The notes below the pieces were generated by a model that saw only the letters and a list, made by a program, of their open reading frames with translations, did not search any database and was not told the DNA's origin. From NCBI GenBank assembly GCA_023132505.1, contig JAGLYE010000012.1, positions 1-15,558 of the forward strand: 15,558 nucleotides of DNA, in the 5' to 3' direction. The position numbers and the translations under genes were made by a program. Within the stretch, counting starts at the first letter, position 1; each line of letters starts with the position of its first letter. The stretch is from Bacteroidales bacterium. GTDB lineage: Bacteria; Bacteroidota; Bacteroidia; Bacteroidales; B18-G4. Shown piece after piece: positions 611 to 14,171 of this stretch.

Positions 611-1183
611 TCACTGCCCTTCCTCATCATACATAGCACTGAGATTGAAACGATCCGGATGGCGTGGATACTTGTCTCGATAAAAGTCCTGGATCAGCTT
701 AAGGTCTTTTTCATAATCCCCCGTGGGATAAAAAGTAAGGCCATATCCCACCTTTTTATTTCTGTAATCAATGTAAACACATCCGATGGGTACCTCCGCT
801 GCCATAGCTATGGCATAAAAGCCTTTTTTCCACTTCTTTACCAACTTGCGTGTGCCCTCCGGGGTTATCATCAGGAAAAAGCTGTCGTTTTTTTTAAACA
901 TTTCTGCTAACTGTTCAATAAGGCGGTTGTTCTTGCCACGGTCAACAGGGATGCCTCCGGCCTTTTTGACCAGCCAGCCCATCGGCCCGCTAAAAGCCTC
1001 TTTTTTAATCAGAAAGCGCGTTTTCAAGCCCAATATCGTTGCACCAAACCTTCCAAAGACAAAATCGAAATTGCTCGTATGTGGTGCAGCCAGCAAAACA
1101 CACTTTTTCAGATCCGGTGGAGGTTTGTTTTCGATCTTCCAACCGCTAACCCAGAAATAGAATTTGGCGAACAGGCGTATCAT
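611..1183 (-). CDS. 1-acyl-sn-glycerol-3-phosphate acyltransferase-like protein (PlsC family)
   Basis: This is a 190-residue protein of the PlsC/LPLAT acyltransferase family, whose members move an acyl chain from acyl-ACP or acyl-CoA to a lysophospholipid or related acceptor at the inner membrane. Visible family blocks, numbered from the chosen start, are the catalytic HTSNFD (H35 and D40, the HX4D motif), the GGIPVDR block at 76-82, and ITPEGTR at 106-112, which binds the acceptor phosphate. The N-terminus (MIRLFAKFYFWVSGW) is amphipathic to hydrophobic and probably seats the protein in the membrane. I chose the ATG at 1181-1183 over one 19 codons upstream because a TATATTTG promoter box lies just ahead of it and the extra residues do not look like family sequence. 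It is shorter than standard PlsC (about 240 residues), as is common for the small Bacteroidota members, so the exact acceptor is uncertain. Confidence 0.88.
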   Translation of the reverse strand: MIRLFAKFYFWVSGWKIENKPPPDLKKCVLLAAPHTSNFDFVFGRFGATILGLKTRFLIKKEAFSGPMGWLVKKAGGIPVDRGKNNRLIEQLAEMFKKNDSFFLMITPEGTRKLVKKWKKGFYAIAMAAEVPIGCVYIDYRNKKVGYGLTFYPTGDYEKDLKLIQDFYRDKYPRHPDRFNLSAMYDEEGQ

Positions 1184-1199
1184 GATAAGATAATTAATA

Positions 1200-1207
1200 C
1201 AAATATA
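1200..1207 (-). promoter_or_regulatory. Bacteroidota -7 promoter box for the PlsC-like gene
   Basis: On the minus strand these bases read TATATTTG, matching the Bacteroidota TAnnTTTG element, 16 bp ahead of the ATG at 1183. A clear -33 TTTG element is not visible at the expected distance, so this is a reasonable but incomplete promoter. If it is real, the 5' leader is only about 10 nt. Confidence 0.5.
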
Positions 1208-1310
1208 TGGATTATCGAGAAACGACTTCCGGCTACCCAAGATAGAATGGTTAAAACCCTAAATTTTAAGCTCTAAATTCTAAACAAATTCATAACTTAA
1301 AACTAATTCA

Positions 1311-1430: not shown

Positions 1431-4241
1431 ATGAAAAAGTATATGCTTCTGCTACTGGCCTTTTTTGCTGTAGCATCCCTTACTGCCCAGGAATTTGTGT
1501 ATGAGGACGATGCGCCGGTACCTCTCGATCCGGCTGTGATCTATGGCAAGCTCGACAACGGCTTAACTTATTACATCCTTGAGAACGATATGCCTGAAAA
1601 CAGGGCTGAATTCTACCTTATTCTTAATGCCGGGGCCATTCTCGAAGATGATTCCCAAAATGGACTGGCACACTTTTGTGAGCATATGTGCTTTAATGGT
1701 ACGGAAAACTTTGAGAAACACGACATCATTAACTATCTGCAATCGATCGGGATGAAATTTGGTCCCGAGATAAATGCCTTTACAAGCCACGACAATACCA
1801 CTTATATGCTTCGGAAGGTTCCGACTGATGAGCCTGCCAACATTGATACGGCGCTCATGATCCTGTATGATTGGGCGAACAATGTTTCTTTCGAAGATGA
1901 AGAGATTGATAATGAACGTGGTGTGATCCATGAAGAATGGAGAACACGTCGCGGGGCGATGTTCCGCCTGATGACCAAGTCGCAAAAGGTGCTTTTTAAA
2001 GGTTCTAAATATGCCGAAAGGGATGTTATCGGCGATATTGATATCATTGATAATTGTGCTTATGATGAATTGCGCAGGTTCTATTACGACTGGTACCGCC
2101 CTGACTTGCAAGCTGTGATTGCTGTTGGTGATTTTGATGCAGCAGAAATGGAAACCCATATTGCTGCTCTGTTTTCCCAGATACCTGCACGTGAGGATGC
2201 TAAACCAAGGGAAGTATTTCCTGTTCCCGATCATAATGAAACCTATGTGAGCATTGAAACAGATCCTGAAGCCCAGTACAATATGATACAGGTTTACTGG
2301 AAGCATGATCCTGATCCCGATAAGAACATGGGGTATTATCGCGATGGTGTGTTGCAGGAGTTGTATAGCATTATGTTAAATGCACGCCTGCAGGAGCTTA
2401 ATTTACAGGACGATCCTCCATTCATCTTTGCCATCTCAATGTATAGTAATGTGGTACGCAGCAAGGATGCCTATATTGCATTTGCCATTGCATCAAATGA
2501 AAAGATCCCCGTCGCACTTGAGGCCATTTTATTGGAAAACGAAAGGGTGAAACTCCACGGATTCACCGCTACGGAATTGGAAAGGGCGAAAGCCGATTAC
2601 CTCAGCAGCATGGAAACCCAATACAAGGAAAAAGATAAGCAGGAGTCGGATACTTATGTGTGGGAGTATTCCGATCATTTTCTGAATGATGAACCTGTTC
2701 CCGGAATCGATTTCGATTATGCATTTGTTCAGAAGGTATTGCCCGGGATCAGCCAGGAAGAAATGAATGAACTGGCAGCAAAATGGATTACCGACGGTAA
2801 TCGCGTAGTGGTCATTGCCGGCCCCGAATCTGAGGAAATACAAATGCCTTCGGCTGAAGAAGTGCTTAGCCTGGTTGCTGCTGTTGAAAATATGGAGATT
2901 GAACCTTATATCGATAAGGTGTCAGATGCACCCCTGGTTGCTGAAGTACCTGAACCCGGAACCATTGAAAAGAAAAGAAAGGATAAAAAATTAGGCACAC
3001 TTAGCTGGGATCTTTCCAATGGTGTCAGGGTAGTATTCAAACCTACTAATTTTAAGGATGATGAGATACTGATGAGTGCATATAGTTTCGGAGGTACAAG
3101 CTTATATGAAATGGATGAGTTGATGTCGGCAGATAACAGTGTCGGCGTTGTAAGTATGAGTGGATTGGCAAGCTTTGATGAAATTGAGCTGCAAAAGAAA
3201 CTTTCCGGAAAAATAGTGAGTGTCTGGCCGTATGTGGGTGAAAGCTCGGAAGGGTTTAACGGGGAATGTACCCCCGAAGATTTTGAAACCATGATGAAGC
3301 TGGTGTACCTGTATTTTACCCAAACCCGCCAGGATGAAACAGCCTTCAATTCTTTCATGAATATGATGAAAGGGATTTTGGATAACAGGGAGAACAACCC
3401 CTCCTCGGCACTGCAGGACACTTTGCTTGTAACTATGGCAGATTACAACCCCCGCGTAAGACCGGTGACCTCCGAACGGCTTGAGGAAATCAATTTCAAG
3501 AAGTTGCATTATATCTACAATGAAAGGTTCGGAGATCCCGGTAGTTTTACTTTTTACTTTGTCGGGAATATTGATCCGGTAGAAGTAGAGCCCCTGGTTC
3601 TTACATACCTGGGAGGTCTTCCCATAGTTAAGCGAAATGAAAACTGGAAAGATAACGGCGTGAGGCCTCCTGATGGCACAGTGGTAAAGACCGTGGTCAG
3701 GGATATGGAAGTGCCCAAGGCGACTGTCAGCATAAGCTTTACAAGTGTATATGATTATGATAATGCCCTGGCAAGGATGGAATTGTCGACACTTTGCGAT
3801 GTACTTGATATACGCTATACAGAGTCTATCCGTGAAGAACAGGGTGGTACTTATGGCGTGGGCGTAAACCCTCAGCAAGTACACTATCCATGGGAGCATT
3901 ATATCGTAAGAATATACTTCGACTGCGATCCGGAAAAAGTTGATAAGCTTAAGGCCATCGTATTTGAGGAAATTGATAAACTTAAATCGGAAGGCCCGAA
4001 GGCAAAAGACTTGAATGGTGTGAAGGAAAACCTGCTTAAATCGAGGGCGGAACGCTTGGAACAAAACAGTTTCTGGCTGAATATGCTTAAAAATATTGAT
4101 TATCACCAGGCGGATCCCAAAAACATCTTCAAGTATGACGATATGGTTAACAGTATGACCATAGAAAGCCTGAAAGATGCAGCTAACAGGTTCTTTAATG
4201 TGGATTATGTTGAGGTGGTTCTTCTTCCGTCAGATAATTGA
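1431..4241 (+). CDS. Secreted M16-family zinc metallopeptidase (two-domain, pitrilysin/PqqL type)
   Basis: A 936-residue peptidase with a signal peptide (MKKYMLLLLAFFAVASLTAQ, probable cleavage near residue 19-20), so it acts in the periplasm or on the cell surface. The N-terminal catalytic half carries the inverted zinc motif HFCEH, with H81 and H85 as zinc ligands and E84 as the catalytic base. E162 in NERGVIHEE, 77 residues after H85, is the expected third zinc ligand. The C-terminal half has no HXXEH and is the usual inactive M16 repeat, but it keeps the conserved substrate-binding Arg-Tyr pair (R801 and Y808 in REEQGGTYGV). The length matches the ~930-residue single-chain family members in Bacteroidota. 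M16 enzymes degrade peptides inside a closed chamber, and the substrate here is unknown. It is monocistronic, with its own promoter upstream and a palindromic terminator-like element four bases after the stop. Confidence 0.95.
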   Translation: MKKYMLLLLAFFAVASLTAQEFVYEDDAPVPLDPAVIYGKLDNGLTYYILENDMPENRAEFYLILNAGAILEDDSQNGLAHFCEHMCFNGTENFEKHDIINYLQSIGMKFGPEINAFTSHDNTTYMLRKVPTDEPANIDTALMILYDWANNVSFEDEEIDNERGVIHEEWRTRRGAMFRLMTKSQKVLFKGSKYAERDVIGDIDIIDNCAYDELRRFYYDWYRPDLQAVIAVGDFDAAEMETHIAALFSQIPAREDAKPREVFPVPDHNETYVSIETDPEAQYNMIQVYWKHDPDPDKNMGYYRDGVLQELYSIMLNARLQELNLQDDPPFIFAISMYSNVVRSKDAYIAFAIASNEKIPVALEAILLENERVKLHGFTATELERAKADYLSSMETQYKEKDKQESDTYVWEYSDHFLNDEPVPGIDFDYAFVQKVLPGISQEEMNELAAKWITDGNRVVVIAGPESEEIQMPSAEEVLSLVAAVENMEIEPYIDKVSDAPLVAEVPEPGTIEKKRKDKKLGTLSWDLSNGVRVVFKPTNFKDDEILMSAYSFGGTSLYEMDELMSADNSVGVVSMSGLASFDEIELQKKLSGKIVSVWPYVGESSEGFNGECTPEDFETMMKLVYLYFTQTRQDETAFNSFMNMMKGILDNRENNPSSALQDTLLVTMADYNPRVRPVTSERLEEINFKKLHYIYNERFGDPGSFTFYFVGNIDPVEVEPLVLTYLGGLPIVKRNENWKDNGVRPPDGTVVKTVVRDMEVPKATVSISFTSVYDYDNALARMELSTLCDVLDIRYTESIREEQGGTYGVGVNPQQVHYPWEHYIVRIYFDCDPEKVDKLKAIVFEEIDKLKSEGPKAKDLNGVKENLLKSRAERLEQNSFWLNMLKNIDYHQADPKNIFKYDDMVNSMTIESLKDAANRFFNVDYVEVVLLPSDN

Positions 4242-6196: not shown

Positions 6197-7489
6197 ATGA
6201 TCCTCATCTATTCCCCCAAAATAACTCCCCGCATCCGGTATATTTTCAAGCTTATATTTTCGGGGCTGTTAAAAGATGAGCCTGTTTTTACTTCCGATGT
6301 TGAAGAATTTGCTGCAGCAAATAGCCCAAAGATAAACTACTCGAAGGACCCTGCTGCAGGGGGATTATTCATGGAAGCACAGGGCCTTCTCAGCGAGAAG
6401 GAGATCCAAACCCGGGAACTTGTATTTCTTGAGGATGAAGATCCTCCTGCTTTCTTTCCGGTATATCATGAAAGCGCTTCCATGAAATTTGATGCTTTTG
6501 CAGCATCTTTTTATCTGGTTAGCCGGTATGAGGAATATCTCCCTTTTGTAAGGGATGAATATGGACGGTTTCAGGCCAGGGAGAGTATTGCCTGGAAAAT
6601 GGACTTTCTCGATAAGCCGGTAGTTAACATCTGGGCGGATAGGATCGCTGCAGCGATCATGAAAAAGTGGCCGGACTGGAAACCGGGACCCAAAGAGTAC
6701 CGCTTTATCCCAACCATCGACATAAACGCAGCATGGAAGTTTAAGCGGAAAGGCTTCTTCAGGACTACGGCCGGCATTGCCAATGCCCTGATCAAGGGTG
6801 AATTTGAAAATGCTATTGAGAGGATGAAGGTTATCGGTAACAGCAGACCGGACCCTTTTGATACCTATGAAGAACAATTGGACCTTCATAAAAACTATGA
6901 GCTGGAAACCATCTATTTTGTCCTGTTTGCCGATTATGATAATAACGACAGGAACATCCCGATAAATAACAGGCACTTTAAAACACTCATCAAAAACCTG
7001 GCAGACTATTGCAGGATCGGCATCCACACATCTTTTGCATCATTGAAATCCTATGATAAACTGAATCTGGAATTCAAAAGACTTGCAGCTGTATTAAATA
7101 GAGAGATCGATATGACGCGGCAGCATTTTCATGTACTCAATATGCCGGTTACATATCGGAATTTTGTCAGCCGCGATGTGGAAAACGACTATTCAATGGG
7201 ATATGCCGTTATACCTGGTTTCAGGGCCGGCATTTGTGATCCGTTTTATTTTTATGATCTTGATTTCGAATTGGAAACAAACATGCGTATCTGGCCTTAT
7301 GCTATTGTTGACAAGGCACTTGAACAGGGCTATGATCCTGAAAAGTCATTCAAACCTATTATCGACAGGGTGAAAGAGATGAATGGCACCCTGATAACAT
7401 TATGGAACAATGAATCCCTGGTGAAGGAGAAAGGGCATAAGGCAAATTTGCAAGGGTACGAAGAAATCATCCGAATGGCAATCCCATAA
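6197..7489 (+). CDS. Polysaccharide deacetylase-like protein 1 (DUF7033-type), probably catalytically impaired
   Basis: A 430-residue protein without a signal peptide, clearly paralogous to the protein at 11929-13239. They share FYLVSRYEEYLPF exactly, and closely share FIPTID, SRQHF/TRQHF, DYSMGYA and GFRAGI. The architecture is a Bacteroidota-type N-terminal region (I believe catalogued as DUF7033) followed by a divergent NodB-like barrel. NodB-family enzymes remove N- or O-acetyl groups from glycans using Asp-His-His metal sites. Here the first motif reads PTIDIN (D175, N177) where the paralogue has PTIDVD. The C-terminal motif reads LWNN (N404) where the paralogue has IWHN. H277 in IHTSF is kept. 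Loss of one acidic residue and one histidine suggests weak or no catalysis, perhaps a binding or regulatory partner. The start aligns with the paralogue's N-terminus. It is the first gene of the cluster. Confidence 0.8.
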   Translation: MILIYSPKITPRIRYIFKLIFSGLLKDEPVFTSDVEEFAAANSPKINYSKDPAAGGLFMEAQGLLSEKEIQTRELVFLEDEDPPAFFPVYHESASMKFDAFAASFYLVSRYEEYLPFVRDEYGRFQARESIAWKMDFLDKPVVNIWADRIAAAIMKKWPDWKPGPKEYRFIPTIDINAAWKFKRKGFFRTTAGIANALIKGEFENAIERMKVIGNSRPDPFDTYEEQLDLHKNYELETIYFVLFADYDNNDRNIPINNRHFKTLIKNLADYCRIGIHTSFASLKSYDKLNLEFKRLAAVLNREIDMTRQHFHVLNMPVTYRNFVSRDVENDYSMGYAVIPGFRAGICDPFYFYDLDFELETNMRIWPYAIVDKALEQGYDPEKSFKPIIDRVKEMNGTLITLWNNESLVKEKGHKANLQGYEEIIRMAIP

Positions 7490-7529
7490 ATAATCCCTTC
7501 CTTCTTAAAACTGATTTCATTATTCAAAC

Positions 7530-7537
7530 TATATTTG
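7530..7537 (+). promoter_or_regulatory. Possible internal -7 promoter box before the toroid gene
   Basis: TATATTTG in the 65-bp gap between the deacetylase-like gene and the toroid gene, 17 bp ahead of the ATG at 7555. No -33 TTTG is visible. It could allow separate transcription of the seven downstream genes. Confidence 0.45.
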
Positions 7538-7554
7538 TCGAGATTTCTGTTGAT

Positions 7555-8754
7555 ATGTTTAAAAGCTTGTTTCTATATGTGAGGTGCTTCCTCCTTACGG
7601 TATTTTCCGCCAGGATCAGATATCTGTTAAAAGACTTTTACAGATATCATTTGAGAGGAAATCGGTATTATAACGGCCAACACCCTGATAGTAAACAAAG
7701 AAAACTGGCCATTGGACGTGCCGTGAACTGGTTGCTCCGGGCACAGGCAGCCAATAATGATGGCGGAATGGGCTCCTTTCACCTGGTGAGCGAATGGTCA
7801 TCCTCCTATCCGGAAACAACAGGCTATATCATACCTACCCTGCTTCAATATGCAAGCGAAAAAAATGACAGCAATATTACTGAAGCTGCGATCAGGGCAG
7901 CCGACTGGCTTATCGATATACAAAGACCACCCGGTGGATGGCAGGGAGGACGTGTGAATGAGAATAAACCTCCTGTTGTTTTCAATACAGCCCAGGTCAT
8001 CAGAGGACTGCTTGCCGTTTACCAGCTGACAAAAGAAAAAAAATATATCGACAGTGCTGTGAAAGCAGGTGACTGGCTGTGCAGTATACAAGATAAGGAG
8101 GGCACATGGACAAGACATGCCCTTATGAAGAGAGCCCGGGTTTACGACAGCTATGTGGACTTTCCTTTGCTGATGCTCCACAAAGAGACAAGAATTAAAA
8201 AGTATATGCACCATGCCATCCGGAATCTTAACTGGATTGTAGAAGAGAAACAGCATGAAAATGGATGGTTTGAGGATTGTGATAATACGATCAAAAGAAA
8301 CCACAAACCTATTCTCCATACTATTGCATACACGATCGACGGATTGCTTGATTCCGGGATTTACTTAAATGAGAGAAAGTATATTGAAGCCGCCCTGAAA
8401 GCTGCCGATGTATTGAAAGAGAAATTTGACCGGGATGGCTTTTTGCATGGCAGGTACGACAGGGAATGGAACGGAAGTGAACATATAATCTTAACCGCTT
8501 GCGCACAAATGTCAATCATATGGCAAAAAATGGCCCACTATGCAGGGAATAAAACCTATGCAGATACAGCCCGAAAGATGAATAGCTTGCTTGTTTGTTT
8601 ACAAAATAGAAATTTCAGGAACGAATCAACCAACACCCTGGGTGCTATGAATGGGTCCTTTCCGTTATGGGGAAGGTATGAGCCTTTTGCCTATCCCAAT
8701 TGGGCCACTAAATATTTTGCCGATGCAATGATGTTGGAGGAAAATAATCAATAA
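7555..8754 (+). CDS. Alpha/alpha-toroid protein with QW-like repeats (prenyltransferase/terpene-cyclase-like or glycan-active fold), function unknown
   Basis: A 399-residue protein I cannot assign to a specific enzyme. It shows regularly spaced QxxxxGxW-like motifs: QAANNDGG (from Q64), QRPPGGW (Q123-W129), QDKEGTW (Q179-W185) and QHENGW (Q233-W238), at intervals of 54-59 residues. Each is preceded by a helix with an AxxAxxWL pattern (RAADWLIDI, KAGDWLCSI, RNLNWIVEE). This is the signature of an alpha/alpha barrel, shared by squalene-hopene cyclases, prenyltransferases, and also by several polysaccharide lyases, hydrolases and C5-epimerases. The DXDD motif of class II cyclases is absent. The N-terminus (MFKSLFLYVRCFLL) is hydrophobic and may associate with the membrane. 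There is no typical cleavage site. Placed between a deacetylase and the activation genes, a glycan-directed role seems likelier than terpenoid synthesis, but that is inference. Confidence 0.6.
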   Translation: MFKSLFLYVRCFLLTVFSARIRYLLKDFYRYHLRGNRYYNGQHPDSKQRKLAIGRAVNWLLRAQAANNDGGMGSFHLVSEWSSSYPETTGYIIPTLLQYASEKNDSNITEAAIRAADWLIDIQRPPGGWQGGRVNENKPPVVFNTAQVIRGLLAVYQLTKEKKYIDSAVKAGDWLCSIQDKEGTWTRHALMKRARVYDSYVDFPLLMLHKETRIKKYMHHAIRNLNWIVEEKQHENGWFEDCDNTIKRNHKPILHTIAYTIDGLLDSGIYLNERKYIEAALKAADVLKEKFDRDGFLHGRYDREWNGSEHIILTACAQMSIIWQKMAHYAGNKTYADTARKMNSLLVCLQNRNFRNESTNTLGAMNGSFPLWGRYEPFAYPNWATKYFADAMMLEENNQ

Positions 8755-8757
8755 GGA
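8753..8757 (+). promoter_or_regulatory. Ribosome binding site supporting a TTG start
   Basis: AAGGA lies 7 bp ahead of TTG at 8765 and overlaps the stop codon of the toroid gene. It is one of the few Shine-Dalgarno-like sites in the window and decides the start of the adenylation gene, which has no suitable ATG. Confidence 0.55.
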
Positions 8758-8764
8758 TACCGGT

Positions 8765-10321
8765 TTGAACAAAGAAATACTTGCATACAGGCTTCAAGAG
8801 GCATTTCTGAAATACAGAGATAATGCTGCCATACAAATAGGAAACAAGGTATGGACCTTTGAAGACCTCCATATTAAGTCTCTTGCAATAAGTTATGCGA
8901 TACAGCAATCATCAGCCGGTGAAAACACCCCTGTAGCAATACTGGGTGCCAAAAGTTTCATGACATTTGCCGGTATATGCGGAAGTTTATTGGCTTCTCG
9001 TACATATATGCCCTTGAATCTTAAATTTCCCGCGAAACGGAATCAGAAAATGCTGACTTTGTCAGCAGCCGGGATCATCATTGCAGATGATGAATCTGAG
9101 AGCATGCTCAGCCAGTTGTTGACTGATGATACGGTGAATTACCAGGTGGTGATTGATGCAGACATGGCTAAATGGTCAAATGAATTTCCTGAACACCGCT
9201 TTATTCCATTAATGGATAATGTATCATTATCCGGTTTGGATATCACTGCCCATCCGGAGAATCCCGCATACCTTCTTTTTACATCCGGCACAACGGGAGT
9301 TCCCAAAGGGGTGCCGGTATCCAATAAAAATGTGACCGCATACCTGGATTACATCTTGTCGGCATGGGATTTCAGAGAAGATGACCGTTTTTCTCAAACC
9401 TTTGACCTGACTTTCGACCTCAGTGTACATGATATAATGGTATGCTGGCTTTCGGGAGCATGCTTGTGCGTTCCGGACGATGACTCACCATTCCGGCTTA
9501 CTTCCTATATACGCGATCAAAGGATTAGTGTCTGGTTCTCCGTCCCCACTGTGGCAGTTTTGATGCACAAGATGCGACTGTTGAAAAGTAACACTTTTGC
9601 GAAGCTTCGCATGAGCTTTTTTTGTGGGGAGCCGCTTCCGGCAGGAATTGCTGATCAATGGCAGGAGGCAGTGGGTGGAAGGGAAGTCGTAAACCTCTAC
9701 GGGCCCACCGAAACAACTATCGCCATCAGCGCTTATGCCTGGAATCCCGGAAACAAAAAGAATAAAAACGGGATTGTGTGCCTGGGGAAGATCTTTGAGG
9801 GGCAAAGGCATTTATTGCTTGATATGGAAACCCTGAAACCGGCAGGGGAAGAAGGAGAACTTTGCCTTGGCGGAAGCCAGGTGATCCATGCATATCTGGG
9901 TGATGATAAACTGACTGAAAAATATTTTATCCGGGTGGATGAAATTCCCGGGGAAATATGGTACAGGACCGGCGACCTGGTACGTGAGGATGAGGATGGT
10001 GACCTCTTCTTTCTTGGCAGGGCCGATTCAGAAGTGAAGATCTCAGGGTACAGGGTGAACCTTTTTGAAATCGATACAGCGATCAGGAAGGCGGCCGGTA
10101 CGGATATGGTGGCATCTGTCCTGGTTGATAAGAAAACACCCGCCATTATAAGTTTTGTTAGCGGAGATCACTCCCTGGGAGAATCGGAGATCATTCATGA
10201 CTGCAAGAAAGAACTGCCATGGTATATGATCCCGGAAAGGATTATATTTGTGGATGAAATGCCTTTGACCCTTAATGGGAAAATTGACAGGAATAAGTTA
10301 AAGCAAAGCCTTAATGGATAG
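8765..10321 (+). CDS. Stand-alone amino-acid adenylation enzyme, DltA-like (AMP-forming ligase)
   Basis: A 518-residue adenylate-forming enzyme that should activate a carboxylic acid with ATP and load it on a carrier protein. It shows the core motifs of non-ribosomal peptide A domains and DltA: TSGTTGVPKG (173-182), FDLSV (217-221), YGPTETT (312-318), YRTGDL (400-405), FLGRADSEVKISGYRVN, and LNGKIDR with the catalytic lysine K506. D218 in FDLSV is the position that binds the amino group in amino-acid-activating members, and DltA proteins have the same motif, so an alpha-amino acid is the likely substrate. Fatty acyl-CoA ligases lack it. The length matches DltA (about 505-520). It starts at TTG behind an AAGGA. 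It overlaps the carrier gene by 8 bp, so the two are probably made together. Which amino acid is used cannot be told. Confidence 0.85.
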   Translation: MNKEILAYRLQEAFLKYRDNAAIQIGNKVWTFEDLHIKSLAISYAIQQSSAGENTPVAILGAKSFMTFAGICGSLLASRTYMPLNLKFPAKRNQKMLTLSAAGIIIADDESESMLSQLLTDDTVNYQVVIDADMAKWSNEFPEHRFIPLMDNVSLSGLDITAHPENPAYLLFTSGTTGVPKGVPVSNKNVTAYLDYILSAWDFREDDRFSQTFDLTFDLSVHDIMVCWLSGACLCVPDDDSPFRLTSYIRDQRISVWFSVPTVAVLMHKMRLLKSNTFAKLRMSFFCGEPLPAGIADQWQEAVGGREVVNLYGPTETTIAISAYAWNPGNKKNKNGIVCLGKIFEGQRHLLLDMETLKPAGEEGELCLGGSQVIHAYLGDDKLTEKYFIRVDEIPGEIWYRTGDLVREDEDGDLFFLGRADSEVKISGYRVNLFEIDTAIRKAAGTDMVASVLVDKKTPAIISFVSGDHSLGESEIIHDCKKELPWYMIPERIIFVDEMPLTLNGKIDRNKLKQSLNG

Positions 10322-10577
10322 AGGGGAGATCAACGATTATATTATCGAAAATTTAAAGGATAAGCTTGCCTTATTTGATATCTCCCCCGGAGAGATTCAA
10401 AAGGATTTCGACCTGGTAAAAAGCGGACTGCTCGACAGCATGGCTTTTATTGATCTGCTTGCAGATGTTGAAGAGAAGTTTCAACTTGAGATTGATTTTG
10501 AAAAAGCTGCTGAAGAAGATGACTTCACCAGCCTGGGAGGGATGATAAACATTATTATGAACTTAGGGAATGCCTGA
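10314..10577 (+). CDS. Acyl/aminoacyl carrier protein, DltC-like
   Basis: An 87-residue acidic carrier protein. The 4'-phosphopantetheine attachment serine is S42 in SGLLDSMAF, with the pattern seen in DltC (LLDS followed by M or F), followed by helix II (IDLLADVEEKFQLEI). Length and helix arrangement match DltC (about 78-90 residues) and acyl carrier proteins. It overlaps both neighbours by 8 bp (the adenylation gene upstream, the GNAT gene downstream), which implies coupled translation. The expected role is to hold the adenylated substrate as a thioester for the transferases downstream. It could instead be a generic acyl carrier. A phosphopantetheinyl transferase would be needed and is not in the window. 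Confidence 0.88.
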   Translation: MDRGEINDYIIENLKDKLALFDISPGEIQKDFDLVKSGLLDSMAFIDLLADVEEKFQLEIDFEKAAEEDDFTSLGGMINIIMNLGNA

Positions 10578-11061
10578 TAAATTCGAAATACTTGAGCTGA
10601 CCGATAAACAGGACCCTGCCCTTGAGCAGGTGACAGGGCTCTTCAGCGAAATGTACACTTATATGCAGGAACATGGCCTGATGCTTGAACTCTCTGAAGA
10701 TGGCGCTCAAAAGTGGATAGCCTCAGTAAAAAAAGGACTTGGGCGTTTTGGGATCCTGTATATTTCCTTGCACAATAATAAAATAAGCGGCTTCGCACAT
10801 GGCAGCATCAAGCTCATCCCTGATTATCTTGGAAGTAAAAAAACAGGGGTGATCAACCATGTTTATGTGATAAGTGATCATCGTAATGCAGGTGTAGGAA
10901 AAGCCCTGGTGCAATCACTGGAAAAATGGTTTTCCGGTCTGGAGGTCCATTCACTGGAACTGCAGGTTCTCTTTGGCAACCTGCCGGCTGTGAGTTTTTG
11001 GGATAAGCTGGGCTATCACCGGGAACTTTTGCAATGCCGGAAGATGGGTGAGGAGACCTGA
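10570..11061 (+). CDS. GNAT-family N-acetyltransferase
   Basis: A 163-residue GNAT-superfamily protein. Motif A is NHVYVISDHRNAGVGKALV at ~96-114, with the acyl-CoA (or acyl-pantetheine) pyrophosphate-binding RxxGxGK (R105-K111). Motif B follows with ELQVLFGNLPAVSFWDKLGY. The family transfers an acyl group from acyl-CoA to a primary amine, and some members accept carrier-bound acyl groups. It overlaps the carrier gene by 8 bp, so the carrier or the amine made by the deacetylase may be its partner. No residue tells its substrate. The annotation as GNAT is firm, the acceptor unknown. Confidence 0.85.
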   Translation: MPDKFEILELTDKQDPALEQVTGLFSEMYTYMQEHGLMLELSEDGAQKWIASVKKGLGRFGILYISLHNNKISGFAHGSIKLIPDYLGSKKTGVINHVYVISDHRNAGVGKALVQSLEKWFSGLEVHSLELQVLFGNLPAVSFWDKLGYHRELLQCRKMGEET

Positions 11062-11096
11062 TCATAGCTTTACTGCAGAAAAAACAAGATAAGCAC

Positions 11097-11963
11097 ATGG
11101 ATCAACAGCCATATATTCCATACAGGGAAATAGCCGGAAAGCTGCAAATCCAAAATGGAGATGTGGTCCTGCTTACTTCCGATATTCTCCGGCTGGCCAT
11201 GAGAGCAAGAAAAACCGAGAGGGAATTCAGCGCTGAGGCTTTTCTGGAAAGCTTTATCGAGGTGCTCGGCCCTGATGGGACACTCCTCATCCCGGCCTAT
11301 AATTTTGACCTTGAGAATGGAGATGCATACGATATATCCAAAACAGAACCCATGACAGGTTCACTTGCTGTTGCTGCGATGCATATTGATGGCTTTATCC
11401 GTACAACACACCCACTGCATTCATTCCTGGTTTCGGGAAAAGATGCCGGATTATTATCAGACCTGGAAAATTCCAGCTCATTTGGGAAGGATTCTCCTTT
11501 TGCATATCTGCTCGAGAAAAATGCGCTCCTGATATTTGCCGGAACCACCATTGAGGAAGCCATGACCTTTACGCATTTTGTGGAAGAAAATGAACAGGTC
11601 CGCTACCGCAGATACAAGAACCTGAAAGTGGACTATACCGACCGTAAAGGGGATACGTATGCCAAAGTATTTAAACTCTATGCAAAAAAAGCAGGATATA
11701 CCATGGCATTGGATCGTTTGGCAGATATCCTTCCCGCAGAGATACTGTTTAAGAATATGATCAATAATGTCCCTTTTATCAGCCTTCGCTGCAAAGATAC
11801 TTATGAGATCATTGGAAGGGATATCAGGGAAAACAATGCTTCCTCAATAGCTAAATTCAGCTATAGTTTATACATTCGTGATATAATAAAGAATGGCCTG
11901 CAGCGGTTTAACTTATTCAGAACAACCTATGGCAAGATCAGAAGTGCTAAGCGTATATATTGA
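11097..11963 (+). CDS. AAC(3)/Antibiotic_NAT-family acyltransferase
   Basis: A 288-residue member of the AAC(3) fold, typified by aminoglycoside 3-N-acetyltransferases and YokD. Family blocks are LGPDGTLLIPAYNF (57-70), the catalytic-histidine region TTHPLHSF (H105, H108), SPFAYLLEKNALLIFAGTT, and THFVEE (159-164) near the active site. Family members acylate an amino group of an aminosugar using acetyl-CoA. Many relatives outside resistance sit in polysaccharide and O-antigen clusters and act on sugars. Here, in a glycan-like cluster, a role in sugar N-acylation is likelier than drug resistance. It follows the GNAT gene after 35 bp, and its 3' end overlaps the next gene's start by up to 35 bp. 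The donor could be acyl-CoA or the neighbouring carrier protein. That last point is inference. Confidence 0.8.
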   Translation: MDQQPYIPYREIAGKLQIQNGDVVLLTSDILRLAMRARKTEREFSAEAFLESFIEVLGPDGTLLIPAYNFDLENGDAYDISKTEPMTGSLAVAAMHIDGFIRTTHPLHSFLVSGKDAGLLSDLENSSSFGKDSPFAYLLEKNALLIFAGTTIEEAMTFTHFVEENEQVRYRRYKNLKVDYTDRKGDTYAKVFKLYAKKAGYTMALDRLADILPAEILFKNMINNVPFISLRCKDTYEIIGRDIRENNASSIAKFSYSLYIRDIIKNGLQRFNLFRTTYGKIRSAKRIY

Positions 11964-13239
11964 GGATATCAGCCCCAGGGCAAGCTGGGTGCTCAGACTG
12001 ATATTTGAAGACCTGCTTGGCCTGAAACTAAGCCTGACAGATGACAGCACGCTGCTGAGCATTCCCGGAAAGACTGTTCTCAACTACTCTGCAGCTGAAA
12101 CTCCCCATCTGCTTTCAATCACTCCTTACGGCCTCCTGTCAGAAACAGATCTGAAACCACAGGATGTCCGGATGAGTCAGTATGAAGGCCTGCCGGTATT
12201 TTTCCCCACAGGGGATGGTGACCTTCCATTTGATCCATTCTCAATGATATTCTACCTGGTTTCAAGGTATGAAGAATACCTGCCATTCAAGGCAGATGGT
12301 CATGGACGTTTTCCGCATACCGAAAGCCTGGCCTATAAGGAAGGTTTCCTCAAGCTTGCTATTGTGAACCGCCTGGCATTGAAACTTAAAGGTCTTTTAT
12401 TGCAAAAGTTCCCGGATCTCGTGTGTAATTGTCCTGATTACCGTTTTATACCTACCATAGATGTTGACATTGCCTTTGCACACCTCGGAAAAGGTTTTGT
12501 GCGGACCTATGGTGCCATGGCAAAGCTATTGCTGAAAGGGAATATTAAAGAGATCGGTAAGCGGATAAGAACCATGCAGGGGAAAGCAGAAGATCCTTAC
12601 GATAATTTTGATCTGTTATTGTCTTTATTTTCAAAATACTCTCTGGATCCTGTGTTCTTTATCCTTGCAGGTAATCCGGGCCCCTTTGACAGGAACTTGT
12701 CTTTAAAGAACAAACTCTTTGCCGGACTTTTGATTAAACTTTCGGAAAGTGCTGAGTTGGGTGTTCACCCTTCGTATGGTGCCGGCCATGACCATGGCAA
12801 AATAAAGAATGAAATTGACAGAATTGAAGCAGTGACAGGCAAGAAGGTAAGCAAAAGCCGGCAGCATTTTGTCAGGATGAGATTTCCGGAAACATATGAA
12901 GGTTTATTACATAATGGCATTCTTGAGGATTACTCAATGGGTTATGCCTCCATGTCTGGCTTCAGGGCAGGCATCGCCTCCCCATTCAGGTTTTACAACC
13001 TAAGAAACGACGAAGAAACCTCGTTGATAGTACACCCATTCATATTTATGGACACTACACTGGACGATTACATGAAGCTGGATCCAAAGGATTATCCGGC
13101 GGCTGTCGTTCCGTTGATTGAGGAGGTGAAGGCAGTAAATGGCACCCTCATTGCCATTTGGCATAATTATGCACTGGCGGATGATGTGCAAAAACACAAA
13201 GCCTTTAAGGATATCATGAAAACAGCAAGCAGAATATGA
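11929..13239 (+). CDS. Polysaccharide deacetylase-like protein 2 (DUF7033-type), predicted active
   Basis: A 436-residue protein, paralogous to the one at 6197. The barrel keeps the metal and catalytic positions expected for NodB-like deacetylases: TIDVD (D178, D180), VHPSYGAGHD (H280 and the later H) and IWHN (H412). Paralogue 1 has Asn at D180 and H412. Shared blocks include FYLVSRYEEYLPF, SRQHFVRM, DYSMGYASMSGFRAG and NGTLIAIWHN. No signal peptide is seen. The start is uncertain: ATG at 11929 is used here. GTG at 11944 would align exactly with the first residue of paralogue 1, and an earlier ATG at 11893 overlaps the previous gene far more. It probably removes acetyl groups from a glycan or its lipid-linked precursor in the cytoplasm, exposing amines for the acyltransferases. 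Its stop overlaps the next gene (ATGA). Confidence 0.82.
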   Translation: MARSEVLSVYIEDISPRASWVLRLIFEDLLGLKLSLTDDSTLLSIPGKTVLNYSAAETPHLLSITPYGLLSETDLKPQDVRMSQYEGLPVFFPTGDGDLPFDPFSMIFYLVSRYEEYLPFKADGHGRFPHTESLAYKEGFLKLAIVNRLALKLKGLLLQKFPDLVCNCPDYRFIPTIDVDIAFAHLGKGFVRTYGAMAKLLLKGNIKEIGKRIRTMQGKAEDPYDNFDLLLSLFSKYSLDPVFFILAGNPGPFDRNLSLKNKLFAGLLIKLSESAELGVHPSYGAGHDHGKIKNEIDRIEAVTGKKVSKSRQHFVRMRFPETYEGLLHNGILEDYSMGYASMSGFRAGIASPFRFYNLRNDEETSLIVHPFIFMDTTLDDYMKLDPKDYPAAVVPLIEEVKAVNGTLIAIWHNYALADDVQKHKAFKDIMKTASRI

Positions 13240-14171
13240 TAAAACATCTCAAATATGAGCATATCGACAAGGAAAAGTGGGATGACTGCATCAGCAATTC
13301 CTTCAATGGGGTGATCTATGCCTATTCATGGTTCCTGGATGTGGTTTGTGAGGAATGGGAAGCTTTGGTAGAAGGCGACTACGACAGGGTATTTCCGATA
13401 AATTTCAGGAAAAAGGCAGGAGTGAATATCATCTACCAGCCATTTTTTACACAACAGCTTGGGGTATTCTCGAAAACCGGGCTCACTCCGGAAGTAATAA
13501 ATAACTTTCTGAAGGCCATTCCCCGAAAATACAAGGTCATCGACCTGAACCTGAACATACATAATAAGCCCGACCTTCCGGGCTTTGAATATTCGCTACA
13601 GATAAATCACGAGCTTGATCTGATCGGTGATTATGCTGCCCTCAGGAGCAATTACGCAACAAATACCCGTCGTAACCTGGTAAAGACTGAGTCAGCAGGG
13701 CTTTCCATTGTTAAGGGAATCAAACCTGATGATGTTATTGATCTTTTCAGGGCCAACCGGGGCAGGAATATAAAGGTACTGAAAGATGCCAATTACCTTA
13801 AGCTTAAAAGATTGATCTACACATGCATCTATAAGGGAATTGCATGCGTTTATGGGGTTTATACCGAAAACAATGTTTTATGTGCAGGAGCTGTATTCCT
13901 CGAAAGCAATAAGAAATCCGTGTTCTTCTTTTCCGGGCTCAGCAGTGACGGCCGGGATCAAAGAGCCATGTTTTTCCTGATAGACCATTTTATAAAAGAT
14001 CACTCGAATAAGCACCTGACGCTTGATTTTGATGGTTCGAACAATGAAGCGCTGGCCCGTTTTTATAAAAGTTTCGGTTCAACGAGAATTGATTTTATGA
14101 GGATCAGCCGCAATACACTTCCTTCCTGCCTGAAAATCCCTTTAAAGTTTTATCGGAAGATGCGGTCATAA
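13236..14171 (+). CDS. FemAB-like / GNAT-fold (BioF2-like, Acetyltransf_6) transferase
   Basis: A 311-residue protein of the FemAB-related GNAT-fold superfamily. The motif NTRRNLVKTESAG (143-155) matches the RRN-K segment of FemAB-like proteins. The C-terminal half (DANYLKLKRLI, LCAGAVFLES, DFDGSNNEALARFYKSFGS) matches the Acetyltransf_6 pattern. FemA/FemB/FemX proteins attach amino acids to peptidoglycan precursors from aminoacyl-tRNA. Relatives occur in exosortase/exopolysaccharide clusters. It overlaps deacetylase 2 at ATGA, so translation is coupled. A tRNA-independent donor such as the adjacent carrier protein is possible but unproven. It is the last gene of the cluster, 40 bp before the permease, which has its own promoter box. 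Confidence 0.75.
   Translation: MIKHLKYEHIDKEKWDDCISNSFNGVIYAYSWFLDVVCEEWEALVEGDYDRVFPINFRKKAGVNIIYQPFFTQQLGVFSKTGLTPEVINNFLKAIPRKYKVIDLNLNIHNKPDLPGFEYSLQINHELDLIGDYAALRSNYATNTRRNLVKTESAGLSIVKGIKPDDVIDLFRANRGRNIKVLKDANYLKLKRLIYTCIYKGIACVYGVYTENNVLCAGAVFLESNKKSVFFFSGLSSDGRDQRAMFFLIDHFIKDHSNKHLTLDFDGSNNEALARFYKSFGSTRIDFMRISRNTLPSCLKIPLKFYRKMRS

Follow-up and report, generated by a model that had tools for sequence, protein, structure and literature searches.

An eight-gene cluster of Bacteroidales with VimE-like deacetylases, an AlmE-like A-domain and a carrier protein

Gene content of the locus

The stretch of DNA considered here (the window) is the entire contig G000:C24 of a Bacteroidales bacterium (GCA_023132505.1, JAGLYE010000012.1), which is 15,558 bp long and belongs to an assembly of 1.9 Mb in 352 contigs that is 75.7% complete (genome G000). 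It carries a cluster of eight open reading frames (ORFs) between 6197 and 14171 which in the ORF list of the window are all located on the plus strand and overlap or almost touch (Table 1). The initial annotation, made from the letters alone, described eight co-directional genes and guessed their families; the ORF list agrees with it on the former and family scans on the latter. The DA2 gene probably starts with the ATG at 11929 and not at 11893, since its relatives start there. In family scans of the window the cluster is flanked on the left by dnaX on the opposite strand and on the right by a MacB/FtsX-type permease. As far as literature searches show, with most subscription papers outside their scope, no description of this cluster exists, and it is a conserved variant of the VimE/VimA theme with an AlmE-like glycine supply.

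Table 1. Genes of the cluster, followed by two ordinary neighbours
Gene and product	Position	Strand	Matches and remarks
DA1, VimE-like DUF7033 protein, predicted pseudo-deacetylase of the native lineage	6197..7489	+	DUF7033 111.6 bits; NF053580 118.6 bits
TOR, alpha/alpha-toroid protein	7555..8754	+	SQHop_cyclase_C 38.7 bits
AMP, free-standing adenylation domain (A-domain), predicted glycine-activating	8765..10321	+	AMP-binding 209.9 bits; TIGR01733 305.4 bits
ACP, carrier protein	10314..10577	+	PP-binding 21.5 bits; invariant phosphopantetheine serine
GNAT acyltransferase	10570..11061	+	51 bits
AAC3, AAC(3)-fold acyltransferase	11097..11963	+	Antibiotic_NAT 77 bits
DA2, VimE-like DUF7033 deacetylase	11929..13239 (ORF listed from 11893)	+	DUF7033 101.9 bits; NF053580 175.8 bits
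FEM, FemAB-like transferase	13236..14171	+	remote homologue of the vimA-position protein in L216
PlsC-type acyltransferase, beyond dnaX	611..1240	-	PF01553
Large ORF reading like an M16 peptidase	1431..4241	+	

Conservation and genomic setting

A profile of the toroid protein has at least 572 confirmed places in species genomes, of which the best 80 were analysed, so that loci were selected by their toroid. Gene labels at these loci are similarity matches on mechanically called ORFs, and the neighbour names uracil phosphoribosyltransferase (UPRTase), permease and M16 peptidase come from reading the sequence or from one scanned representative. In the best 80 of these places an AMP gene lies at most two genes after the toroid gene in 17 loci. 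The initial annotation would fail if the genes were not kept together, and a neighbourhood comparison run as a test of this speaks for it, with the exact order TOR-AMP-ACP-GNAT-AAC3 in 12 loci, 11 of which also have deacetylase and FEM genes; some other toroid loci stop at a contig edge. At L021 a single uninterrupted ORF of 937 aa naturally fuses the toroid to the A-domain (L021:5369-8182). Because the order recurs on other contigs and the two proteins are fused in L021, the eight-gene cluster is conserved, and more so than by chance. Within a set of 60 relatives a strong toroid match (E 3.6e-131 or better) is found in G054, in the window genome and in eight further members of the family of the latter, and in all ten the cassette genes follow the toroid gene as far as the contigs extend, the cassette being split across two contigs in G001, G004 and G007. 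The toroid is rare in a sample of the phylum, where it is present in 6 of 395 genomes at E 1e-30 with the window genome counted. Another fusion of toroid with A-domain, a partial one, is seen in P0105.

The deacetylase and FEM genes form a pair of their own, which is also found where the toroid is missing. Twenty-nine toroid-less deacetylase loci were read among the 60 relatives (two of them, L157 and L162, from cassette genomes), and in 14 of these the VimE-like deacetylase gene adjoins the FEM gene. One such locus, in G048 (L170), has the order M16 peptidase, dnaX, DA, FEM, UPRTase, ABC permease; the window has dnaX, DA1-TOR-AMP-ACP-GNAT-AAC3-DA2-FEM, permease; and L026 has S20, RadC, UDP-GlcNAc 2-epimerase, DA, TOR-AMP-ACP-GNAT-AAC3, FEM, UPRTase. 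Because these three gene orders correspond, the cassette is located inside a DA-FEM locus. VimE-family matches (E 1e-8) and FEM matches (E 1e-20) each occur in 49 of the 60 relatives, with both in 47, one only in two and two, and neither in nine (Fisher p 1.9e-7, a test which, like the others on the 60 relatives and the phylum sample, ignores relatedness).

The two deacetylases

The nearest NCBIfam model for both deacetylases is VimE, a UDP-2,3-diacetamido-2,3-dideoxy-glucuronate deacetylase (NF053580), with E 1.1e-51 for DA2 and 2.5e-34 for DA1. In a tree of 72 deacetylase sequences DA2 falls into a clade of 15 rows which all come from cassette genomes (support 100/99), and DA1 into a clade of nine (100/100) that groups with the toroid-less L148, L150 and L170 at 93/93, below the star level of the tool. 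We take the motif residues of both proteins to have the roles known from CE4 enzymes. In all nine members of the DA1 clade the second Asp of TxDxD is replaced by Asn, and the His of WHN by Asn or Ser (Asn in DA1 itself), whereas the other 63 rows keep the Asp in every case and the His in 62, the remaining one, L063, being cut before it. DA2 retains all motif residues, and the single deacetylase of L026 has both. Since all nine proteins belong to one clade, their residue loss is a single event. The gene is nevertheless still conserved (dN 0.122 and dS 0.81 against L016, similar to DA2 with dN 0.146 and dS 1.08 against L151), and because two motif residues are lost from a conserved gene, DA1 is probably a retained pseudoenzyme. 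The two deacetylases recognised at the outset thus remain two VimE-like DUF7033 proteins, of which probably only one is active.

The A-domain and its carrier

With the amino-acid adenylation model TIGR01733 the A-domain reaches 305.4 bits, slightly below the cut-off of 317.4, and it shares with AlmE of Vibrio cholerae (4oxi) the pocket motifs TFDLSVHDI, SFFCG and NLYGPTExTIA. The D247 residue of AlmE binds the glycyl amine, and L248 and C316 restrict the substrate, as tested by mutagenesis (PMC11253843, main text). The equivalent residues of the window protein, D218, L219 and C287, recur without exception in the 15 cluster A-domains compared, and the ACP serine of the DSM motif is invariant in 16 relatives. 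AMP therefore probably activates glycine, to judge from its pocket. The carrier had been expected to hold an amino acid or an acyl group; the former is retained, and a fatty acid is unlikely because the cluster A-domains always keep the alpha-amine-binding Asp and the Leu and Cys determinants of glycine.

The transferases

All 109 aligned relatives of AAC3 (from 116 matches) share its His160 and Glu163, which presumably have the roles of the His-Glu pair of AAC(3) enzymes. The FEM protein alone has no Pfam or NCBIfam match at E 1, whereas among 21 aligned members of its family seven match FemAB and 12 match Acetyltransf_6. In G038 (L172:316-8725) a FEM gene lies two ORFs downstream of porN in a porK-L-M-N row of the type IX secretion system (T9SS), and the ORF that precedes it is a weak match of the same FEM profile.

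Kinship with the Wbp/Vim pathway and the proposed link to type IX secretion

The genes of the Vim locus are arranged in the order bcp-recA-vimA-vimE-vimF. A similar row is found in G406 (L216), where a VimE protein above the model's cut-off (675.6 bits) is accompanied by Bcp, RecA, a FEM-profile match, a PIG-L-like protein and a glycosyltransferase in the order Bcp, RecA, FEM match, PIG-L-like, VimE, glycosyltransferase, the names Bcp, RecA, PIG-L and glycosyltransferase being a reading of the sequences. The FEM-profile match scores 110.4 bits and is located two genes upstream of VimE, at the position of vimA, and FEM aligns with this protein at 99.6% hhalign probability (E 1.3e-24). From these profile comparisons the DA-FEM pair is homologous to VimE-VimA. 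According to the main text of the Wbp/Vim study, VimE is proposed to remove an acetyl group and VimA, which matches pep-cterm_femAB, to add serine or glycine, and the resulting sugar is bonded to T9SS cargo at its C-terminus and links it to lipopolysaccharide (LPS) (PMC7468200). A further text places vimF next to vimE and vimA (PMC13086638).

The window genome has two adjacent full-length T9SS sortase genes (L186, G000:C201), a GldJ gene on the same contig and 78 matches to the C-terminal domain (CTD) of T9SS cargo, and each of the ten cassette genomes has 70 or more such matches, counted up to a maximum of 150. Adjacent sortase pairs are also seen in G005, G021 and G048. Of the 60 relatives, 49 have both sortase and deacetylase, seven have only the sortase, none has only the deacetylase and four have neither (p 6.8e-4); in the phylum sample of 395 genomes the corresponding numbers are 95, 162, 14 and 124 (odds ratio 5.2, p 3.8e-9). 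The tie between deacetylase and sortase is strong and not exclusive. As a marker of T9SS only, the deacetylase is rejected by the 14 exceptions among 109 phylum genomes that carry it, and the toroid is rejected in the same role, since archaea and further phyla have it too and 6 of 395 phylum genomes carry it.

Comparison with known systems

The cluster resembles the Wbp/Vim pathway of Porphyromonas gingivalis and Tannerella forsythia in having a VimE-type deacetylase beside a VimA-like FemAB-type protein (FEM adjoins DA2), in the T9SS sortases and CTD cargo of its genome and in the amino acid expected on an amino sugar. It differs in that its deacetylases are under the VimE cut-off, no Wbp gene lies in the window, and a toroid, A-domain, carrier, GNAT and AAC(3) are added which the main text on Wbp/Vim does not mention (PMC7468200). 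In V. cholerae AlmE loads glycine onto AlmF and AlmG moves it onto lipid A (PMC12930378, main text). The cluster shares with AlmEFG a free-standing A-domain with AlmE pocket motifs and a carrier, but it contains AAC(3), GNAT and sugar enzymes and no AlmG-type family among its eight genes; the PlsC-type gene outside it was not compared with AlmG.

The A-domain had also been called DltA-like. This applies loosely, as the layout of A-domain and carrier is that of DltA-DltC, which place D-alanine on teichoic acid, and the DltA model scores 249.5 bits against a cut-off of 476; however, the pocket motifs are those of AlmE, a Leu is found where DltA has Thr near the pocket (PMC11253843, main text), and no DltB or DltD family match lies in the cluster. 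A resemblance had also been noted to the proteobacterial XrtA/PEP-CTERM exopolysaccharide loci, which combine deacetylase, FemAB-like protein, AMP ligase and carrier. The nearest kin is instead Bacteroidota Wbp/Vim; the XrtA-associated ligase model TIGR03098 reaches 170 bits, far from the 592.35 of its cut-off, and no TIGR03019 match is seen for FEM. The exosortase was correctly described as missing from the window, and none is found in G000 at 75.7% completeness.

Proposed function

The best single reading, held with about as much doubt as confidence, is T9SS anchoring: a glycine-tailoring cassette has been added to an aminoacyl-sugar locus of VimE/VimA type and probably alters the T9SS linking sugar. 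By analogy with AlmE and AlmF, AMP would adenylate glycine and load it onto ACP, from which AAC3 and/or GNAT may transfer the glycyl group, perhaps N-acetylated, onto the amine of an amino sugar. In the manner suggested for VimE and VimA, DA2 would strip an N-acetyl group and FEM would attach an amino acid to the amine thus exposed. TOR, whose gene in many relatives has a UDP-GlcNAc 2-epimerase gene nearby, may change the sugar in some way. DA1 would be a pseudoenzyme retained from the older DA-FEM pair. The likeliest product is a sugar whose aminoacyl amine would serve as nucleophile for the type IX sortase, and cargo would therefore be tied to LPS via a different linker. The deacetylation of a sugar and its re-acylation with an amino acid, as first suggested for this cluster, thus agree with the role proposed for its nearest studied relatives VimE and VimA (PMC7468200, main text).

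This proposal builds on the computed conservation of the genes, their homology to VimE and to the vimA-position protein and their position at a DA-FEM locus. It also draws on the computed AlmE-like pocket, the loss of DA1 motif residues and the T9SS sortases and CTD cargo of the genome; every chemical step, the sortase link and the identity of glycine are what we infer from these.

Several observations weigh against it. Both deacetylases stay below the 440 bits required by the VimE model and are homologues only, and no Wbp gene (WbpA/B/E/D) is found among the scanned ORFs of the window, the genome itself not being searched. By score AlmE ranks third behind 8k4r and 6akd, which both lack the TFDLSVHDI and SFFCG motifs, and 6akd (IdnL7) accepts Gly, Ala or Ser (PMC11253843, main text), so that Ala or Ser is possible for AMP. 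Three acyltransferases leave the acceptor positions undefined, and neither the ORF list nor the family scans of the window show a glycosyltransferase or polysaccharide exporter. Among the 60 relatives two have FEM and no deacetylase and two the reverse, and seven of 56 sortase genomes have no deacetylase; of the 109 genomes with a deacetylase in the phylum sample, 14 have no sortase match at E 1e-110. The epimerase is not found in G000, G001 and G006 (75.7, 75 and 82% complete), and toroid and AAC(3)-like genes occur without DA or FEM in archaea and other phyla.

A rival reading has a different acceptor, namely a repeating sugar of O-antigen, capsule or exopolysaccharide which the cassette would glycylate independently of T9SS anchoring. 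The 14 phylum genomes without sortase would fit such a role, as would the glycosyltransferases, flippase-like and Wzy-like genes at toroid loci of other groups (L091) and the sugar-phosphate transferase, GT4 and sugar epimerase near L046 and L048. The window-family cluster, however, has dnaX on one side and an ABC permease on the other, includes neither a glycosyltransferase nor an exporter of polysaccharide, and occupies the place of a DA-FEM pair that tracks sortase in the 60 relatives, which makes this a doubtful explanation, albeit one of some weight. Glycylation of an aminolipid or lipid A in the manner of AlmEFG is improbable: it would account for the AlmE-like pocket and carrier and could involve the PlsC-type acyltransferase beyond dnaX, but that gene is on the other strand and outside the operon, and the cassette is accompanied by a sugar deacetylase and, in 30 of the best 80 of at least 572 toroid places, by a UDP-GlcNAc 2-epimerase gene.

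An exosortase attachment target, as proposed for PEP-CTERM loci, has a slightly slimmer chance still. Exosortase family matches are present in seven of the ten cassette genomes, five of them above cut-off (L217-L224, short proteins), but they are weak (24-39 bits) and off the cassette contigs, G000 at 75.7% completeness has none, and TIGR03098 is far under its cut-off. Least probable of the four is synthesis or modification of a small molecule, for instance an antibiotic; AAC(3) and GNAT, whose folds invite the idea, would then be tailoring or resistance enzymes. The cluster, which shares its locus with the DA-FEM pair, lacks genes for peptide or polyketide synthesis of that kind (peptide synthetase, polyketide synthase) and for a matching transporter. 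A defence system was rejected, its sole hint being a DpdC match of DA1 at E 0.0052 that is judged to be chance. The colony-spreading genes of Flavobacterium collinsii were likewise set aside; the main text on them contains none of the words 'deacetylase', 'acetyltransferase' and 'FemAB' (PMC9950754).

How amino acids reach T9SS linking sugars is an open question, for which a glycyl carrier protein as proposed under T9SS anchoring is a testable source. The main text on Wbp/Vim contains neither 'tRNA' nor 'aminoacyl' (PMC7468200), and that on Prevotella intermedia calls the alanine-transfer pathway unknown and several pathways possible (PMC11969387). It is a tentative suggestion, and one we would not call likely, that a carrier protein gives Bacteroidota a second route to the sortase sugar, in which AlmE-like glycine loading and AAC(3)-fold transfer were swapped in as a cassette at a VimE/VimA-type locus and the old deacetylase became a pseudoenzyme. 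If so, T9SS linker chemistry would vary by cassette in a serotype-like manner. The AAC(3) enzymes of the cluster would put to work on surface sugars a fold that is known above all from drug resistance. The marker pair of DUF7033 and a FemAB-like gene could find such loci across the phylum.

The wider toroid family

Matches of the TOR profile to solved structures are weak and include GH76 mannanase, squalene-hopene cyclase and glucuronyl C5-epimerase among others, and the fold and putative active site of TOR are assigned from such matches. The stretch from three genes before the toroid to eight genes behind it contains an AAC(3)-like gene in 51 and the UDP-GlcNAc 2-epimerase gene in 30 of the best 80 of at least 572 places, and the epimerase is encoded in seven of the ten cassette genomes, outside the cluster. 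The toroid/AAC(3) gene sets form an apparent sugar acylation module which crosses domains. The toroid of Woesearchaeote L066 is accompanied by genes for a carrier, MaoC, an FkbH-like protein and a phosphopantetheinyl transferase, and the toroid loci of Cryomorphaceae and Schleiferiaceae have a short-chain dehydrogenase as the varying part. The differing acyl supply of the toroid loci suggests that an old module for sugar N-acylation can exchange its acyl source and that in Bacteroidota it became linked with the DA-FEM pair. In four cassette genomes the epimerase gene is located on contigs that carry CTD cargo genes (L234, L237, L238 and L240). Toroids with AAC(3)-like genes are seen in Woesearchaeota and Lokiarchaeota at L066, L069, L074, L076, L077, L080, L084, L090 and L095.

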